This document shows, piece after piece, positions 2,126 through 39,294 of a stretch of DNA of 64,000 nucleotides (within the stretch, counting starts at the first letter, position 1; the number at the start of each line of letters is the position of its first letter). The notes beneath the pieces are model-generated. The model was given only the letters and a program-made list of their open reading frames with translations, had not been told where the DNA came from and did no database searches. A program made the position numbers and the translations under genes. Source of the DNA: Candidatus Eisenbacteria bacterium (GTDB taxonomy: Bacteria > Desulfobacterota > Binatia > DP-6); NCBI GenBank assembly GCA_035577985.1, contig DATJZY010000188.1:1-64000 (forward strand). Direction: 5' to 3'.

Positions 2126-3769
2126 CTACACCGAGATGGCGTCCTTGCGGAAGTCGCTGGCCCCGATGCGGACGTTCACCACCGCGGGTTTGCCCGCGCC
2201 GAGCGCGCGCTGGATCGCCGGACGGAGCTGGTCGGGCCGCTCCACCCACTCGCCGTGTCCGCCCATCGCCTCGATCATGAGGTCGTAGCGGGTCGGCGCG
2301 AGCTTGCAGGCGGGCGTGCGGTCCGGGCCGTAGATCTGCACCTGGCCGCGCAGGATCTGCGTCCACGCAGCGTCGTTCCCGATGATGCCGACGATGTTGA
2401 TCTTCTGGCGGATGCAGGCTTCGAACTCCATCATGTTGAGGCCGAAGGCCCCGTCGCCGTACATGATGATGACGTCGCTCTTGGGCGAGGCGAGCTTCGC
2501 GGCCATGGCGTAGCCGGGGCCCGCGCCGAGCGTCCCGAGCGGGCCGGCGTCGAGCCAGTGCCCGAACCCGCGCGGCCGCAGCACGTTGGCCGCCGAGCCG
2601 ACGAAGTCGCCGCCGTCGCCGATGACGATCGTGTCCTTGGTGAGGAACGTGTCGACCTCGGCGCACACGCGCAGCGGGTTGAGCGGCGCCTCGTCGGACG
2701 TCAGCTGCGGCGCGAGTCCTTCCCATTTCTTCTTCTCGATCGCGCGCAGCTCCGCCAGCCACGGGCGCGACAGCTCGGGCGTGAACTTCGAGTCCTTGGC
2801 GAGCTGCGTGAGGGCCGCCATGACGAGCCCAGTGTCGCCGATGATGCCGACGTCGCAGGGCCGGTTGCGGCCGAGCTCGCGGCCGTCGAGATCGACCTGG
2901 ATCAGCTTGGCGGCCGGGTTGATGACGCGCTCGCGGCCGTAGCCGATGCGGAAGTCGAGCGGCGTCCCGAAGATGAGGACGACGTCGGCCTTCTTGAGCG
3001 CGTCCTTGCGCGTCTGGAGGAACCAGTGCGGATCGTCCGGGTCGAGGCTGCCGCGCGCCTGGCCGTTCACGTAGACCGGCATGCCGAACGTCTTCACGAA
3101 CTCCGGGTAGGCGTCGCGTCGCTTGGACCAGAAGAGCTGCGAGCCCACCAGGCACGCCGGGCGCTGGGCGCCCCGCAGGTACTCGAACGCCGCCTCGATG
3201 AAGTGCGGGTCGGGGGCGACGCCGGCCTGGGTGCGGGTGTGCTGCCACTCGACGACGTCCTTGTCGTCGACGTTGTCGAACAGGAGGTCGAGCGGCATCT
3301 CGAGGAAGACGGGTCCGGGCACGTTGGTGGTCGCCACGCGGAACGCCGTGGCGACGTACTCGCCCAGCCGGTTCGCGGCGGGGACCGACACCGCCCACTT
3401 CGTGATCGGCCGCATGAGATCGACGTGGGCCATGTCCTGCAGGCCGCCCATGTCCTGGAACGCGCGCGGCGCCTGCCCGCCGATGCAGATGAGGGGGATG
3501 TTGGCCCGCCACGCGGTCGCGACACCCGTGACGGCGTCGGTGAGCCCCGGTCCCGCCGTGACGATCGCGACGCCCGGCTGCCCGGTCACGCGCGCCCAGC
3601 CGTCGGCGGCGTGCGCGGCCGACTGCTCGTGGCGCACGTCGATGATCCCGATGCCCTCGTCGAGACATCCGTCGTAGATCGACATGACGTGTCCACCGCA
3701 CAGCGTGAACACGTACTGCACGCCCTCGCGCTTGAGCGCCCGGGCGACGACTCGACCTCCGTGCATCAT
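2126..3769 (-). CDS. Thiamine diphosphate-dependent enzyme, acetolactate synthase-like
   Basis: This 547-residue protein has the three-domain ThDP fold of acetolactate synthase, 2-hydroxyacyl-CoA lyase and oxalyl-CoA decarboxylase. The catalytic Glu is in RHEQSAAHAADG (Glu48). The C-terminal ThDP/Mg motif begins GDGAFG near residue 438 and ends with ND near 465. The central domain binds a nucleotide-like cofactor in many relatives. Nothing in the neighbourhood indicates branched-chain amino-acid synthesis, so a lyase or decarboxylase role in degradation is equally plausible. ATG at 3769 is chosen because GAGAGGGG lies 8 nt upstream and the domain begins immediately; the open frame continues upstream only as non-conserved sequence. 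Confidence 0.88.
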   Translation of the reverse strand: MMHGGRVVARALKREGVQYVFTLCGGHVMSIYDGCLDEGIGIIDVRHEQSAAHAADGWARVTGQPGVAIVTAGPGLTDAVTGVATAWRANIPLICIGGQAPRAFQDMGGLQDMAHVDLMRPITKWAVSVPAANRLGEYVATAFRVATTNVPGPVFLEMPLDLLFDNVDDKDVVEWQHTRTQAGVAPDPHFIEAAFEYLRGAQRPACLVGSQLFWSKRRDAYPEFVKTFGMPVYVNGQARGSLDPDDPHWFLQTRKDALKKADVVLIFGTPLDFRIGYGRERVINPAAKLIQVDLDGRELGRNRPCDVGIIGDTGLVMAALTQLAKDSKFTPELSRPWLAELRAIEKKKWEGLAPQLTSDEAPLNPLRVCAEVDTFLTKDTIVIGDGGDFVGSAANVLRPRGFGHWLDAGPLGTLGAGPGYAMAAKLASPKSDVIIMYGDGAFGLNMMEFEACIRQKINIVGIIGNDAAWTQILRGQVQIYGPDRTPACKLAPTRYDLMIEAMGGHGEWVERPDQLRPAIQRALGAGKPAVVNVRIGASDFRKDAISV

Positions 3770-4070
3770 GAGTGAGACCCCTCTCGATTGATCTGCCGGC
3801 CGCGAACGCGGCGACGGCACAGGCGTGCCAGACGGGGGAGTCTGCTGGGCGGGGCCCGGAAAATCAAGGCGGAGCGCAGGTCGTTCGCTGCGAGCACCGC
3901 CGCGCCGTCGGCTGGAGCGCTCGCGCCACCGAGCGTTGCATTTCCGCTCGCGAGCGACGCCGGCGCGACGCTCTTGTCCGCTCTTGTCCAGGGAAATCGC
4001 GCCGCTGCAATTGGTCCGGTTCTTGTTCCAGTAGTCCCAGGCTCGTGAGCGAGCCGGGGAGGTTCTCGCC
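3770..4070. other. Divergent intergenic region with a 10-bp direct repeat
   Basis: These 301 bases separate the ThDP enzyme (leftward) from the large repeat protein (rightward) and must hold both promoters. GCTCTTGTCC is repeated exactly and head-to-tail at 3970-3979 and 3980-3989, with a related TTCTTGTTCC about 35 nt further on. I see no convincing -35/-10 pair. The rightward gene has a strong GGGGAGG ribosome-binding site near 4053-4060. Confidence 0.4.
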
Positions 4071-7454
<3,384 letters not shown>

Positions 7455-13486: not shown

Positions 13487-13495
13487 GCTAGGAGG

Positions 13496-13618
13496 CCGAC
13501 CCAAGACTGCGTCTTGGGTCGGTACCGAGTACCGCGGCCTCGTGGAACGCGCGACCGGCATACCGCGAACGCCCCATGTCTCCCGTCCTCCCCGACCCAA
13601 GACACAGTCTTGGGTCGG
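13496..13618. repeat. Paired-palindrome element, short copy
   Basis: Two perfect 12-bp palindromes with 3-nt loops bound this 123-bp element. The first has CCGACCCAAGAC at 13496-13507, loop TGC and its complement at 13511-13522. The second has CCGACCCAAGAC at 13592-13603, loop ACA and its complement at 13607-13618. Between them is ACGCGCGACCGGCAT at 13547-13561, followed by ACCGCG. The same arms and the same inner motif recur at 33649-33905. It fills almost the whole gap between ctpA and xseA. No transposase or target-site duplication is evident. It could act as a transcript-stabilising, processing or attenuating hairpin pair. Confidence 0.85.
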
Positions 13619-13623
13619 CGTTC

Positions 13624-14988
13624 CTAGTCTTCGCGCTTCGCGACGAAGGTCTTGAAGACCTGCCAGCTCTTCAAGAGCTCGAGCGCGCGATCGAGCTGCG
13701 GATCGGACCCGAGCTCGCCTTCCTTCACGCCGGGCGCCGGTGCGTCGGACGCGTCCGGCTCGGCCTCCTCGCCGTCGGCCGGGACCTTCACGCCCTGCGG
13801 GTGCTCCAGATGACGCGGCAGGTTCGCCTCGCGCAGCGACGTCACCGACGACGAGTTGTTGTCGCCCTTCGCGACCTTCGTGCCCTGGTCCATGGTGATG
13901 TCGGGGACAATGCCGGTCGCCTGGATGGAGCGGCCGTTCGGCGTGTAGTAGCGCGCCGTCGTCAGACGCAGGGCGGAGCTCTCGTCCATCGGCAGGATGG
14001 TCTGCACCGATCCCTTGCCGAACGTCGTCGTGCCGAGCACGAGCGCGCGCTTGTGGTCCTGCAGGGCGCCTGCGACGATCTCGGAGGCGCTCGCGCTGCC
14101 GCCGTTCACCAGCACGACCATCGGGAAGTCCGACCACGTGCTCGGCTTGTGTGCGAAGTACTTCTGCTTCTGGTTCTCGAGGCGGCCGTCGGTGTAGACG
14201 ATGAGCCCCGCGTCGAGGAACATGTCGCTCACCTTCACGGCCTGCGTGAGGAGCCCGCCGGGGTTGTTGCGCAGATCGAGCACCACGCCCTGCAACCCGC
14301 CCGACTCCTTGTCGAGCTGGCGGACGGCGTGCTCGAGGTCGTCGTCGGTCCGCTCCTGGAACTGCGTCAGGCGGAGGTACGCGTAGCCCTTCTCGAGCAT
14401 CTTGTACTTGACGCTCTGGATCTTGATGACCTCGCGCGTGAGCGTGACGTCGAAGACCTGCGTCGGGTTGTCGCGCTTGATCGTCAGGCGGACCTTCGTG
14501 TCCTTGGGGCCGCGCATGTGCTTCACGGCCTCGACCAGCGACATGTCCTTCGTGAACTCGCCGTCGATCTTGAGGATGACGTCGCCCGACTTGATCCCGG
14601 CGCGGTAGGCGGGCGTGTCCTCGATCGGCGCCACGACCGTGAGCATGCCGCTCTTGTTCGTGATCTCGATGCCGAGCCCGCCGAAGCTGCCCTTCGTCTC
14701 GACCTGTAGCTCCTTGTAGAGCTCGGGCGTGAGATACGCGCTGTGCGGATCGAGCGAGGTGAGCATGCCGTTGATGGCCCCCTCGATCAGCTGCTTGGTC
14801 GGCACTTCGTCGACGTAGTTCTTCTGGATGATCGCGAGGATGTTCGTGAACGTCTCGAGGCCTTCGTACGACTCCTTCGAGGCGGCTCCGACCTTGCGGA
14901 CTTCCAGGAATTCCGACGCGGCGACACCGGCGAGGAACGCCAGGACGATCGCCACTCCCACACCGGTTCGTCGCTTGCGCATCAACAT
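13624..14988 (-). CDS. ctpA: C-terminal processing peptidase (S41 family)
   Basis: This 454-residue periplasmic serine protease has an N-terminal membrane anchor (about residues 8-25) and a PDZ domain (about 100-185, GLGIEI...AGIKSGDVILKIDGE). The S41 core follows, with catalytic Ser300 in GGSASASEIVAGA and Lys325 in TFGKGSVQT. The C-terminal tail is acidic and ends in a helical segment. The family trims C-termini of periplasmic and photosystem proteins or degrades tagged proteins. It is downstream of a tlpA-like gene on the same strand, and its stop lies 5 nt from the hairpin of the repeat element. ATG at 14988 is used; an ATG two codons later is possible. Confidence 0.92.
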   Translation of the reverse strand: MLMRKRRTGVGVAIVLAFLAGVAASEFLEVRKVGAASKESYEGLETFTNILAIIQKNYVDEVPTKQLIEGAINGMLTSLDPHSAYLTPELYKELQVETKGSFGGLGIEITNKSGMLTVVAPIEDTPAYRAGIKSGDVILKIDGEFTKDMSLVEAVKHMRGPKDTKVRLTIKRDNPTQVFDVTLTREVIKIQSVKYKMLEKGYAYLRLTQFQERTDDDLEHAVRQLDKESGGLQGVVLDLRNNPGGLLTQAVKVSDMFLDAGLIVYTDGRLENQKQKYFAHKPSTWSDFPMVVLVNGGSASASEIVAGALQDHKRALVLGTTTFGKGSVQTILPMDESSALRLTTARYYTPNGRSIQATGIVPDITMDQGTKVAKGDNNSSSVTSLREANLPRHLEHPQGVKVPADGEEAEPDASDAPAPGVKEGELGSDPQLDRALELLKSWQVFKTFVAKRED

Positions 14989-31149: not shown

Positions 31150-33647
31150 GAGCCGTTCTCGTCGTCGTGACGCTGCTCACGCTGCGCGGGCTGGCGCCCG
31201 CCGAGATCCGCGTGACCGCCACCATCGACCCGGCGAAGCTCGCGGTCGGAGAGTCGGCCGACCTCGCCGTCGTGATCGACGGCACGCAGAGCGCGCCCGC
31301 CCCGCAGATCGCGAGCACCGAGGGCCTGCAGATCCGGGCGGTCGGCCCGTCCTCGAACGTCACGATCGTGAACGGCCGCGTGACGGCGTCGGTCACACAT
31401 CACTTCACGGTGGTGGCCTCGAAGCCGGGCCGCTATACGATCGGTCCGATCGGCGTCGACGTCGACGGCAAGCACTACGATGCCCCGGCGGTGACGCTCG
31501 AGGCGCTCGCCGCCGGCGCGCGATCGGCCGACGGCAGCCCGAGCCGCAACGACCAGCTCGAGCTGTCGTTGTCGCTGCCGCGCACCGAGGTCTACCTCCA
31601 CGAGCGCATCCCGCTCGGCTTGAAGCTCCTGGTGGGCGCCGTGCGCATCGGCGATCTCCAGTACCCGGCGGTTCCCGGCGACGGCTTCGCGCTCGAGAAG
31701 TTTCCCGAGCCGACGCAGCGCCGGGAGGACACGCCGAACGGGCCGCGGCAGGTCGTCGACTTCAAGACGACGCTGACGCCGCTCAAGACCGGATCGCTGA
31801 CCGTCGGGCCGGCGACCATGAACATGAGCGTCGTCGTCCAGGGACGGCGGCGCGGGCCGTTCTTCGGCGGCTTTTTCGGCGACGAGAGCCGCCCGACGCA
31901 GCTCCAGTCGCAGCCGATCACGCTCATGGTCCTGCCCCTTCCGAGCGAGGGAAGGCCGCCCGATTTCGGCGGCGCGGTCGGCCACTTCACGTTCGAGGTG
32001 ACGGCGGCGCCGGCCGAGGTCACGGCAGGCGATCCGGTGACCGTCCACAGCGTCGTGCGCGGCGACGGCGCGCTCGACGGAATCGCCCCGCCGACGATCG
32101 CCGCCGGCGACGGCTTCCGCGTCTATCCCGTGCAGACGAGCCAGCCCTCCGACCGCAACGACGAGCGGACGTTCGAGCAGGTCGTGATCCCGCTGCGCGA
32201 GGGTCCCTTCCGCCTGCCGACGCTCCGCTTCAGCTACTTCGATCCGACGAGCCGCACGTACCGGACGATCGCGCCGAGCCCGATCACCCTCACGATCCGC
32301 CCGTCGGCGCAGGCGAAGGCGACGCCCCAGATCGTCGGCGCCGTGCCGGCGCCGGCGCCCGCTCCGCAGCGCACCGAAACGCTCGGGCGCGACATCGTCT
32401 TCATCAAGGATGCGCCGGGGACGTTGCGGCCGGTCGGAGCGCGTCTGTATCGAAGCCCCGTCTTCTGGCTGCTGCAGCTCGTGCCCGTGCTCGTGTGGGC
32501 CGTCGCCACCGCCTACGACCGTCGTCGCCGGCGGCTCGCGACCGACTCGCAGTACGCGCGCTACACGCGCGCAGGACGCGAGGCGCGCGCGGCGCTCGCC
32601 CGCGCGCGCCTCGTCCTCGGGCGCGGTGACACCGCCCGCTGCCACGATCAGGTCGCCGCGGCCGTGCGCGACTACCTCGCCGCCAAGCTGGCGCTCCCAC
32701 CGGGGAGCGTGCTCGAAGCCGCGCCCGACCGTCTGCGCGCGAACGGCGCCGGCGACGCGGTGGCAACGCAGGTGACGGCCTTCTTCACCGCCTGCGAAGC
32801 CGCGCGCTTCGCGCCACGCGCGACCTCGGCCAGCGAGCTCGAGACGACGCTCGCGCAGGCGGACGCGATCGTGCGCGCGCTCGAGCGCTCGCGCCGCCTC
32901 GGCCGGGCCGCCGCCCTCGCGCTCGTCGCCCTCGCCGCTGGATCGGTCGCCGCGGCCCCCGAGAGCCCGAGCGCCCTCTTCTATCGGGCGAGCGCGCTCT
33001 ACGGCGAGGAGAAGTACGCCGAGGCCGCGGCGACCTATGAGAAGGTCCTCGCGGCGGGTGTGGAGAGCGCGCCCGTGTACTTCGATCTCGGCAACGCCTG
33101 GTTCAAGACCGGCGACGTCGGACGCGCGGTCCTCGCCTACGAGCGCGCGCTCCGCCTCGCGCCCGGCGACCCCGATCTGGCGGCGAACGTCGCTTACGCA
33201 CGCGAGCTCGCGAGCGACGTCGCCGACGAGCCCATCGCCGCCCGATTGCTCGTCCCGCTCGCGTCGCGCGCGAGCACGGACACGCTGCTCCTCGCAGCCG
33301 CCGCGGCGTGGTCGGTCCTGTGGCTCCTGCTCGCGGTCGGACCGCTGCTCCCCGGCTTCGCGCGCGCGCCGCGATTCCTCGTGGCCGCGGCGACGATCGT
33401 GCTGGGCGTGAGCGCGACGTCGGCGGGCTATCGGTGGTGGACCATCGACCACCCGACGTATGCCGTGGTGGTCGCAGTCGCCGACGCCACCGTGCGCTAC
33501 GAGCCGAACGCGAACGCCAAGCCGCACTTCGCCGCCAAGCCCGGCACGGTGCTGCGCGTCGACGGCGAGCAGAAGGGATGGTCGCAGGTCGTCGGCCGCG
33601 ACCGCCGCCGCGGCTGGATCGAGTCGGCCGCGCTGGGAGTCATTTAG
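31146..33647 (+). CDS. BatD-BatE fusion protein
   Basis: This 833-residue protein joins two normally separate Bat proteins. Residues 1-20 are a signal peptide. About 20-430 are the BatD-type repeated beta-sandwich domains (AEIRVTATIDPAKLAVGESADL; PAEVTAGDPVTVHSVVRGDG). A transmembrane helix (about 440-458) and a cytoplasmic helical segment follow. From about residue 605 a second hydrophobic, signal-like helix begins. Then come BatE-type TPR units (ALYGEEKYAEAAATYEKVLAAG...YFDLGNAWFKTGDVGRAVLAYERAL), two helices (about 715-770) and an SH3-like end (VLRVDGEQKGWSQVVGRDRRRGWI). GTG at 31146 overlaps the preceding stop (GTGA). It closes the operon. Confidence 0.87.
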   Translation: MRAVLVVVTLLTLRGLAPAEIRVTATIDPAKLAVGESADLAVVIDGTQSAPAPQIASTEGLQIRAVGPSSNVTIVNGRVTASVTHHFTVVASKPGRYTIGPIGVDVDGKHYDAPAVTLEALAAGARSADGSPSRNDQLELSLSLPRTEVYLHERIPLGLKLLVGAVRIGDLQYPAVPGDGFALEKFPEPTQRREDTPNGPRQVVDFKTTLTPLKTGSLTVGPATMNMSVVVQGRRRGPFFGGFFGDESRPTQLQSQPITLMVLPLPSEGRPPDFGGAVGHFTFEVTAAPAEVTAGDPVTVHSVVRGDGALDGIAPPTIAAGDGFRVYPVQTSQPSDRNDERTFEQVVIPLREGPFRLPTLRFSYFDPTSRTYRTIAPSPITLTIRPSAQAKATPQIVGAVPAPAPAPQRTETLGRDIVFIKDAPGTLRPVGARLYRSPVFWLLQLVPVLVWAVATAYDRRRRRLATDSQYARYTRAGREARAALARARLVLGRGDTARCHDQVAAAVRDYLAAKLALPPGSVLEAAPDRLRANGAGDAVATQVTAFFTACEAARFAPRATSASELETTLAQADAIVRALERSRRLGRAAALALVALAAGSVAAAPESPSALFYRASALYGEEKYAEAAATYEKVLAAGVESAPVYFDLGNAWFKTGDVGRAVLAYERALRLAPGDPDLAANVAYARELASDVADEPIAARLLVPLASRASTDTLLLAAAAAWSVLWLLLAVGPLLPGFARAPRFLVAAATIVLGVSATSAGYRWWTIDHPTYAVVVAVADATVRYEPNANAKPHFAAKPGTVLRVDGEQKGWSQVVGRDRRRGWIESAALGVI

Positions 33648-33648
33648 C

Positions 33649-33905
33649 TCCGAGCCAAGACTACGTCTTGGCTCGGACTAGATCCGAGTTTGTCGCGGTA
33701 GTGGCACGCGCGACCGGCATGCCGCGGCCAGCAAAGCTGGCGCGGCATAGCTGGTACGCACGATGCTCTTCACCCGACCACGGGCATTCGCCGAGCCGCT
33801 GTGCATGAACCGAATCTCCCCGATCGAGTCTGGCGCGCGTGCCCGCGCGTGTACGACCGCCACACGCTCGCGTTCCCCCCGACCCAAGACGAAGTCTTGG
33901 GTCGG
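33649..33905. repeat. Paired-palindrome element, long copy
   Basis: This 257-bp element is bounded by two perfect palindromes with 3-nt loops. The first has TCCGAGCCAAGAC at 33649-33661, loop TAC and its complement at 33665-33677. The second has CCGACCCAAGAC at 33879-33890, loop GAA and its complement at 33894-33905. Inside, ACGCGCGACCGGCAT at 33706-33720 is shared with the copy at 13496-13618. A third hairpin (33719-33748, loop AAA, one bulged G) lies next to it. In the first palindrome both arms carry G/C swaps (CGAGCC and GGCTCG against CGACCC and GGGTCG), so pairing is preserved. It fills the space between two convergent genes and begins one base after the BatD-BatE stop. Confidence 0.85.
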
Positions 33906-37101: not shown

Positions 37102-39294
37102 ATGGACCGACCGAGGAAGTTCGGACTCGCCGGAATTGCCCTGGTTGCGATCGCACTCGGCGCCTTGGTCGGGCCGCCCGCAGTCGAGGCCCAATGTCAG
37201 CACGGCGCCAGCATCTTCAAGACCTGCCAGAGCCCCAAGCGGAAGTGCAACGCGGACTCGCAGTGCAACGATCAGATCGAGTGCACCGACGACGTCTGCG
37301 ACCTCTCGCAGAGCAACATCACCAACTGCACCATCAGCCTCGCGAACGCGGACACCTGCGGCGACACCACGAAGATCACCGGGGGCTTCGACATCGAGGA
37401 CCTCGGCGGGGACAACGTGCGAGTTCCGGCGGTCGGCAACCTCCCCGTTTCAGGGGTTTTCGGAAACGCCGTCTGCTGTGCGGGCCCGTCGCTCCCGTGC
37501 TTCGTCGGTCCCGCCGGCTCGCTGTTCGTCGTCCCCAACTCCGCGACCGGTTGCGGGAACCTCCCGCTGCCCGGCGCGGCAACCGCCGGGCAGGTGAACT
37601 TCCTGCAGAACACCTACGTCGTGCAGCCGAACGATCCCGACCCGCTCCCCGATCAGGGGAACGTGACCGGCAACGACCTGTGCAACGCGGGGCTCATGGG
37701 GTGCTCCACAGGACCCATCACCGTGCAGTTCGGCGCGGGTACCGACCTCGTGAGCGGCTGCGTGAATCAGAACAAGCCCGACAGCACGCCGTGCGGTGAC
37801 ACCGATCAGAACGCGTGCACGACGGCGGGGTGCGAGCAGGGATCGTGCGTGCAGACCCACCAGCAGACGATCTGCACGCCCGACACCAACGAGTGCACGA
37901 GCGATCCCGCGTGCAACCCCGCGACCGGCCTGTGCACGCATCCGCCCGTTCCGGACAGCACGCCGTGCGGCGACACCGACACGAACCTGTGCACCACGGC
38001 CGGCTGCGAGCAGGGCCAGTGCGTGCAGACCCACCAGCAGACCGTCTGCACGCCGGACACGAACGAGTGCACGAGCGATCCGGCGTGCAACCCCGCGACC
38101 GGCCTGTGCACGCACCCGCCCGTTCCCGACAGCACGCCCTGCGGCGACACCGATCAGAACGCGTGCACCACGGCCGGCTGCGAGCAGGGCCAGTGCGTGC
38201 AGATCCACCAGCAGACCGTCTGCACGCCCGACACCAACGAGTGCACCCTCGATCCGCCGTGCAACCCGGCGACCGGCCTGTGCACGCACCCGCCCTCGCC
38301 CGACAGCACGCCGTGCACGGACACCGACGCCAACGCGTGCACGGTGGCGGGCTGCGAGATGGGACAGTGCGTGCAATCCCACATCACCGACATCTGCAAT
38401 GTGCCCGATCACTTCAGCTGCTACGAGGTGAAGCCGTTCCTCTTCCACCGCATCCCCGGCGTCACGCTGGTCGACCAGTTCGGCTCGTCGACCGTCAACG
38501 TCGACCGGCCGAACAAGCTCTGTGCGCCGGCCGACAAGAACGACGAGCAGCCCGAAGCGCCGAACGATCCAGACCATCTGACCGCGTTCCGCATCCGCAA
38601 TCCAGCCATCAAACGGCTGAACCAGGTGGTCGTGAACCAGTTCGGCACGATCACGCTCGACGTCATCAAGACCGACCTGCTCTTCGTTCCGACGGCCAAG
38701 ACCCTCGCGGCACCTGCCCCCGCCCCGCCGCTCGATCCGGCCGTCGATCACTTCCAGTGCTACAAGGTGCGGCGATCGAAGGGCACGCCGTCATTCCAGA
38801 AGATCCTCGGCGTGAAGGTCGACGACCAGTTCGGGACCGGCACCGTCGATCTGCTGAAGCCGGCGCAGCTCTGCGCACCGGTCAACAAGAACAACGAGGA
38901 TCCGACCGCTCCGCAGCACCCGGACCACCTGCTCTGCTACAAGGTGAAGGCGCGCGCGCCGTTCACCACCAAGCACGTCTGGCTCGGCAACCAATTCGGC
39001 CCCTTCAACGACCTGGTCCTCACCCGGCGCCAGGAGTTCTGCGTGCCGTCGCTCAAGAACCCGAGCTCGACGACCACGACCTCCACGCCGCCGACCACGA
39101 CGACCTCGACCACCGTCGTGCAGACCACGACGACCAGCACGAGCACCAGCACGTCCACCAGCACGTCCACCACGACGTCGACGGCAGCGAGCACGTCGAC
39201 CACGACCACCAGCTCGTCGACCACGACCTCGACGACCCAGTTCGGGTCGCCGAGCGCAGCCTTCCTCGACCGCGATCCGTTCGCGACCGATTGA
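37102..39294 (+). CDS. Secreted Cys-rich tandem-repeat protein with Ser/Thr tail
   Basis: The 730-residue product has a signal peptide (about 1-31, ending AVEA) and a Cys-rich N-terminal domain (about 32-220). Residues about 227-430 are three complete and one partial copies of a 58-residue unit (DSTPCGDTDQNACTTAGC...CTPDTNECTSDPACNPATGLC). Three copies of a DQFGxxTVDVxxP...LCAPxDKN domain follow (about 434-655). A Ser/Thr-rich low-complexity run (TTTTSTSTSTS, about 660-715) precedes a short end. It has no membrane anchor. Surface or matrix function is inferred from composition. ATG at 37102 follows GGGGAGG. Confidence 0.85.
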   Translation: MDRPRKFGLAGIALVAIALGALVGPPAVEAQCQHGASIFKTCQSPKRKCNADSQCNDQIECTDDVCDLSQSNITNCTISLANADTCGDTTKITGGFDIEDLGGDNVRVPAVGNLPVSGVFGNAVCCAGPSLPCFVGPAGSLFVVPNSATGCGNLPLPGAATAGQVNFLQNTYVVQPNDPDPLPDQGNVTGNDLCNAGLMGCSTGPITVQFGAGTDLVSGCVNQNKPDSTPCGDTDQNACTTAGCEQGSCVQTHQQTICTPDTNECTSDPACNPATGLCTHPPVPDSTPCGDTDTNLCTTAGCEQGQCVQTHQQTVCTPDTNECTSDPACNPATGLCTHPPVPDSTPCGDTDQNACTTAGCEQGQCVQIHQQTVCTPDTNECTLDPPCNPATGLCTHPPSPDSTPCTDTDANACTVAGCEMGQCVQSHITDICNVPDHFSCYEVKPFLFHRIPGVTLVDQFGSSTVNVDRPNKLCAPADKNDEQPEAPNDPDHLTAFRIRNPAIKRLNQVVVNQFGTITLDVIKTDLLFVPTAKTLAAPAPAPPLDPAVDHFQCYKVRRSKGTPSFQKILGVKVDDQFGTGTVDLLKPAQLCAPVNKNNEDPTAPQHPDHLLCYKVKARAPFTTKHVWLGNQFGPFNDLVLTRRQEFCVPSLKNPSSTTTTSTPPTTTTSTTVVQTTTTSTSTSTSTSTSTTTSTAASTSTTTTSSSTTTSTTQFGSPSAAFLDRDPFATD
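37780..38391 (+). repeat. 174-bp in-frame tandem repeat
   Basis: Units begin with GACAGCACGCC at 37780, 37954, 38128 and 38302, an exact 174-bp (58-codon) period. Units 1-3 are nearly identical at the DNA level; the fourth is partial and more diverged. Such conservation suggests recent duplication or gene conversion and predicts copy-number variation. Confidence 0.9.

Follow-up and report, generated by a model that had tools for sequence, protein, structure and literature searches.

The window analysed here, a 64-kb stretch of DNA, carries a pair of perfect 12-bp stems with 3-nt loops (TGC and ACA) in the gap between two minus-strand genes that we take, from recognition of their sequences, to be ctpA and xseA. 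The question is what kind of repeat this is and why it lies exactly where it does. A sequence-only reading had placed the two hairpins in this gap and had pointed to the same pattern about 20 kb away, and both observations proved exact (Table 1); perfect hairpins with 12-bp stems are expected 0.00 times in shuffled sequence. The left palindrome folds as DNA at -13.4 kcal/mol (z, -7.5). The main feature of the locus, which is missing from that reading, is that the hairpins directly adjoin stop codons and the tetranucleotide CTAG: the ctpA-xseA copy has CTAG at both flanks, though only ctpA terminates there.

Comparison of the sequences showed that the conserved inner motif reported previously (GCGCGACCGGCAT) is common to both window copies and that the ctpA-xseA copy, already described as short, is a shortened version without the bulged inner hairpins of full-length copies, the second copy being the longer of the two. 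The arms are identical, as claimed, in the first copy but not in all copies, since the left stem of the second copy is a compensated variant. Elsewhere in the window, positions 37777 to 38379 hold an internal repeat, with matches of ~430 bp that are offset by ~174 bp and 88% identical.

Table 1. Positions of the two repeat copies, their parts and the adjoining sites in the window
Feature	Position	Strand	Remark
ctpA-xseA copy, left flanking CTAG	13488-13491		No gene stop here; xseA start at ~13486, minus strand
ctpA-xseA copy, from hairpin to hairpin	13496-13618		Full unit bounded by the two CTAGs
Left terminal palindrome, CCGACCCAAGAC-TGC-GTCTTGGGTCGG	13496-13522	+	
Interior of the ctpA-xseA copy with inner motif GGAACGCGCGACCGGCATACCGCG	13523-13591	+	From sequence comparison
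Right terminal palindrome (loop ACA)	13592-13618	-	5 nt past the ctpA stop codon
Right-hand CTAG	13624-13627		Positions 13624-13626 (CTA) form the ctpA stop codon (TAG, minus strand)
TAG stop of the gene that runs into the second copy from the left	33645-33647	+	2 nt from the hairpin
Second copy, whole	33650-33905		
Second copy, left terminal palindrome	33650-33676	+	Compensated stem CCGAGCC/GGCTCGG
Second copy, left half: inner motif and bulged inner hairpin (GGCACGCGCGACCGGCATGCCGCGGCCAGCAAAGCTGGCGCGGCA...)	33701-33762	+	
Second copy, right terminal palindrome	33879-33905	-	TAG stop of the convergent gene 10 nt off

A dispersed family of paired palindromes

Allowing up to three mismatches, we found 113 copies of the terminal palindrome in the window's own genome (G000; 5.70 Mb in 191 contigs, 99.5% complete, and fragmented, with some contigs ending inside elements), whereas the reversed pattern used as a control gave 0. 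The repeat is neither confined to the two window copies nor a catalogued one, as the sequence-only reading had supposed: an Rfam search gave no match above the gathering score and two subthreshold matches, neither of them at the repeat; plasmid and phage records held no match; and viral contigs held no exact match. A viral, plasmid or phage source was dropped on these grounds. Among the 118 genomes searched (G000 and its relatives), five others of the same family carry the palindrome, in 18, 17, 6, 2 and 1 copies, with stems that are often genome specific and compensated (e.g., CCGACCCGAGAC/GTCTCGGGTCGG); a single imperfect match in G077 looks like chance, and nothing further was found in this set. 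The palindrome is also present in 44 copies in G118 (uncultured delta proteobacterium isolate FCS_M_Myxococcota_02) and in 2 to 4 copies each in four genomes of the same phylum as G118 (G143, G201, G203 and G207). The distribution across genomes is patchy.

A full copy in G000 is mostly ~240 to 410 bp long and nearly symmetric. Each full-length half, read from the outside inward, opens with CTAG and a few nucleotides (about 4; consensus, GAAG), continues through a 27-bp palindrome whose triloop is TNC/GNA, then a linker, GGCACGCGCGACCGGCATG, a second, inner hairpin carrying a bulged G, and GGTACGCGC, and closes with a variable center, after which the mirror image follows; the distance from CTAG to the stem differs between copies. 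Some copies have a single palindrome (CTAGGAAG-hairpin-CTTCCTAG), and others are half elements. With 113 copies of a 27-bp palindrome, the family falls among the palindromic extragenic repeats of 20 to 40 bp that occur in high copy, and its inverted pairs follow the layout of BIMEs and REPINs. G118 has a second element of 67 bp, with the same hairpin, that sits between two CTAGs in the arrangement CTAG CAGG-hairpin-CTTGCGCCGCAA-ACGGAGCCC TTC GGGCTCCGT-CAG CTAG, and G201 and G207 have the palindrome with the tag CTAGGAG, partnered with a different second hairpin that adjoins the other CTAG.

A second family of long hairpins, with stems of at least 24 bp, lies close after stop codons at three loci in G118 (L168, L169 and L179), two of which share TTAAGAAGTT...AACTTCTTAA bordered by GGGGACGT.

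Gene ends and CTAG sites

In our own codon-based gene predictions (open reading frames filtered by codon position), the hairpins start 0 to 8 nt (once 14 nt) past a stop codon, most commonly 4 nt, and palindromes taken together mostly start within 0 to 9 nt. The stop codons before hairpins are TAG in 42 cases, TAA in 8 and TGA in 2, against a background of 203 TGA, 98 TAG and 12 TAA, TGA thus being the most frequent stop of the genome. In 791 kb of G000, elements are present in 9 of the 90 gaps between convergent genes, in 6 of the 488 between codirectional genes and in 0 of the 87 between divergent genes, an about ninefold convergent enrichment (P = 8e-5 for convergent versus codirectional gaps) in a set that, like the 400-kb set from G118, comprises long stretches picked mainly for length from contigs known to hold copies. 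The other loci were mostly picked by the hairpin and serve for distances and flanks, and a further list of stop distances, from junctions of our own choosing, does not enter as a rate.

CTAG is scarce, with 173 occurrences in the 791 kb of G000 and 156 in the 400 kb of G118, and in G118 89 of the 156 are TAG stops. Nine of 61 convergent gene pairs in G118 overlap by exactly 4 bp at one shared CTAG and carry no element, and a four-base convergent overlap of this kind is a natural empty site. At occupied convergent sites in the same genome, the stops are typically 67 bp apart with a CTAG at each end, and CTAG stands at both ends of 18 of 19 element copies, including two codirectional ones (L005 and L009). 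The tag is CTAG and not GTAG or CGTC, with the stop-codon variants TTAG, ATAG, GTAG and CTAA. CTAG also flanks ends at which no gene stops, as at L005, L009 and window position 13488. At three other loci (L039, L041 and L058), ends without an incoming gene are without CTAG, which counts against CTAG as the general insertion site. The presence of CTAG on both sides could reflect either a duplicated 4-bp target, as in IS5, or a tag borne by the element, as with GTAG in REPs.

The ctpA-xseA pair is present without the element in three relatives (G001, G003 and G005), in which ctpA ends in TGA, so that these junctions do not show the precise site before insertion. A FabH search for a convergent empty site returned paralogues only and no orthologue. 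Upstream of xseA, G002 (L192) has a different long inverted repeat (CTCGTAAAAGTCGCGTCCCCCCGAAGCTGC plus its mirror), and in G001 (contig C5, 52067 to 53460; L194 and L195) the match to xseA is split in two, which suggests a frame break or local divergence.

It could be argued from their location that these are modules of gene-end RNA, each half being a selected 3' structure (a terminator or an exonuclease block), one per convergent gene, with mobility secondary or ancient. The hairpins directly follow stop codons in a uniform orientation relative to the gene, and inverted repeats in E. coli are likewise enriched just after stop codons (PMC6060812). Most half-copies retain the stop-adjacent palindrome, retention being 72 to 17 at ends with an incoming gene versus 10 to 9 (P = 0.016), a comparison that is weakened in that it was partly ascertained by the hairpin itself. 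We nevertheless think this explanation unlikely. In contrast to post-stop inverted repeats and intrinsic terminators, the elements form a dispersed family with conserved sequence, and none of 57 aligned half-elements has a T-tract after the stem, the downstream sequence being mostly G rich. Hairpins so near a stop codon are rare at ordinary gene ends in both G000 and G118, and the CTAG flanks at ends without a gene stop also count against it. A terminating ribosome would cover a stem lying 4 nt from the stop codon. As a mobile element, the repeat could still serve secondarily as a bidirectional structure at gene ends.

Pairing within the hairpins

In the alignment of 57 half-elements, 99.5% of cells pair, a figure that is partly circular because the structure was drawn from one member, although the alignment itself was made by sequence; this applies much less to the counts of two-sided changes. 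Nine of 24 pairs have changed on both sides, with 66 two-sided against 3 one-sided cells, although many stem changes are common to the copies of one subfamily, so that cell counts overstate the number of independent events. This level of covariation was reached by 0 of 500 shuffles. Pair changes in a wider set of 89 hairpins were compensated in 39 cases and uncompensated in 26.

G-U pairs occupy just 3 of 1,368 cells, which again speaks against a structure selected as RNA. Read from the outside inward, the loops are TNC in 72 of 79 cases, that is, C(GNA)G on the opposite strand, a loop that is unusually stable in DNA. Relative to the gene, the polarity of the loop is TNC in G000 and reversed (GAA) in G118. 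The near absence of G-U pairs and this difference in polarity argue for DNA over RNA, and the structure is apparently conserved as DNA.

Within one element, the stems at the two ends often differ, each being self-complementary and perfect, implying that it is the local hairpin that is kept; end-to-end pairing as the conserved structure was discarded for this reason. Correction of near-palindromes against a template could play a part, but almost everywhere the inner hairpin keeps its bulged G, which correction alone would have removed.

Inverted pairs of DNA uptake signals act as terminators in Neisseria and Haemophilus, and the 12-mer of the present repeat also occurs in inverted pairs at gene ends. 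That the repeat is such a pair is scarcely credible, however: 15 of 18 near-matches to the 12-mer in 393 kb fall inside hairpins, with no excess outside, and on this count we rejected the idea.

Candidate movers and related systems

The comparison with REP and BIME sequences made in the sequence-only reading stands as far as layout is concerned, in that the family consists of inverted palindrome pairs in intergenic space. With REPs, BIMEs and REPINs and their RAYTs (PMC3733652, PMC8266576, PMC3116915), it shares extragenic palindromes in inverted pairs, a 5' tetranucleotide tag, more than 100 copies and a preference for convergent and unidirectional gaps. The termini of GTAG REPs often furnish neighboring genes with their TAG stop (PMC3733652), a remark that is the nearest parallel to the association with stop codons seen here. 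Group 3 REPs form perfect palindromes around a loop of 3 nt, and a CTAG substrate was still cleaved at a reduced level (PMC8266576). These likenesses, together with distant RAYT-like genes in G002, G005, G006, G118 and G201, would suit a conventional REP/BIME (REPIN) family that a RAYT mobilizes and in which CTAG is a variant of the GTAG tag.

We regard that explanation as decidedly improbable. The RAYT/Y1 profiles PF01797 and NF047646 gave 0 matches in G000, the genome richest in copies, so the REP-associated tyrosine transposase that the sequence-only reading had proposed to look for was not found there; they gave none in G143, G203 or G207 either. No family hairpin lies within about 1.5 kb of the Y1 genes at 20 loci scanned in relatives, and copy number does not track the number of RAYTs, G001 having Y1 matches and zero copies. 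A RAYT/Y1 partner was therefore dropped. The element also differs from REPs, BIMEs and REPINs in that its tag is CTAG, placed ~4 nt before the stem, in its extra bulged inner hairpin and in the precision with which both ends abut convergent stop codons, and a REP survey in the open-licence literature describes GTAG- and CGTC-tagged palindromes and never mentions a CTAG tag (PMC3733652). Because the family has neither a GTAG or CGTC tag nor a RAYT in G000, we do not class it as a RAYT-linked REP.

An IS630 partner was likewise dropped, since a search of G000 for the IS630 DDE_3 domain found none. An IS5/IS701-type enzyme is a candidate for the mover because IS5 uses and duplicates CTAG, giving a 4-bp duplication (PMC11894529). 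The element resembles IS5-type insertions and MITEs in having CTAG on both sides and in being a small noncoding inverted-repeat unit, but its ends are complete palindromes and not simple terminal inverted repeats, its CTAG-to-stem spacing varies, and no matching transposase or autonomous copy was found in searches that covered RAYT/Y1 and IS630 enzymes and the sampled loci. The sampled loci contain no hairpin pair around a gene-sized insert, and the sampled part of G000 contains no long repeat with matching ends. At one locus (L057, positions 3099 to 4400 of the locus; G000 contig C161), a copy is split in the inner hairpin by an insertion with a 383-aa DDE transposase that by eye looks IS481-like; we rejected this locus as an autonomous copy, as it is an element interrupted by that transposase.

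The copy number, anatomy, covariation, stop-codon and convergent bias, CTAG flanks and element-free junction in relatives are the observations from which we consider it probable that the repeat is a nonautonomous palindromic miniature mobile element, tagged with CTAG and targeting CTAG stop codons. Its workings are best read as those of a REPIN or a MITE, a small noncoding unit with inverted palindromic ends that spreads by copying. It presumably moves as DNA, with CTAG as its target and an undetected or lost enzyme as its mover. Insertion at a CTAG would leave the element with CTAG on either side. CTAG is depleted in these genomes, and many of the remaining sites are TAG stops, some of them common to convergent genes overlapping by exactly four bases. 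Insertion at such a site would spare both proteins, with the consequence that copies would accumulate at gene ends.

More tentatively, and with some doubt, these repeats may form a class of their own among palindromic miniature elements, with a patchy spread through several bacterial lineages and a non-RAYT enzyme as mover, for which CTAG amber stops, especially CTAGs shared by convergent genes, serve as a safe harbor. If right, this would give a simple reason for finding repeats exactly at gene ends, namely, that a rare target survives mainly as a stop codon, where insertion is nearly free. The family, with its strong covariation at the DNA level, would then be a place to seek a non-RAYT enzyme that recognizes hairpins, and a test case for how perfect palindromes stay perfect while their sequence changes.
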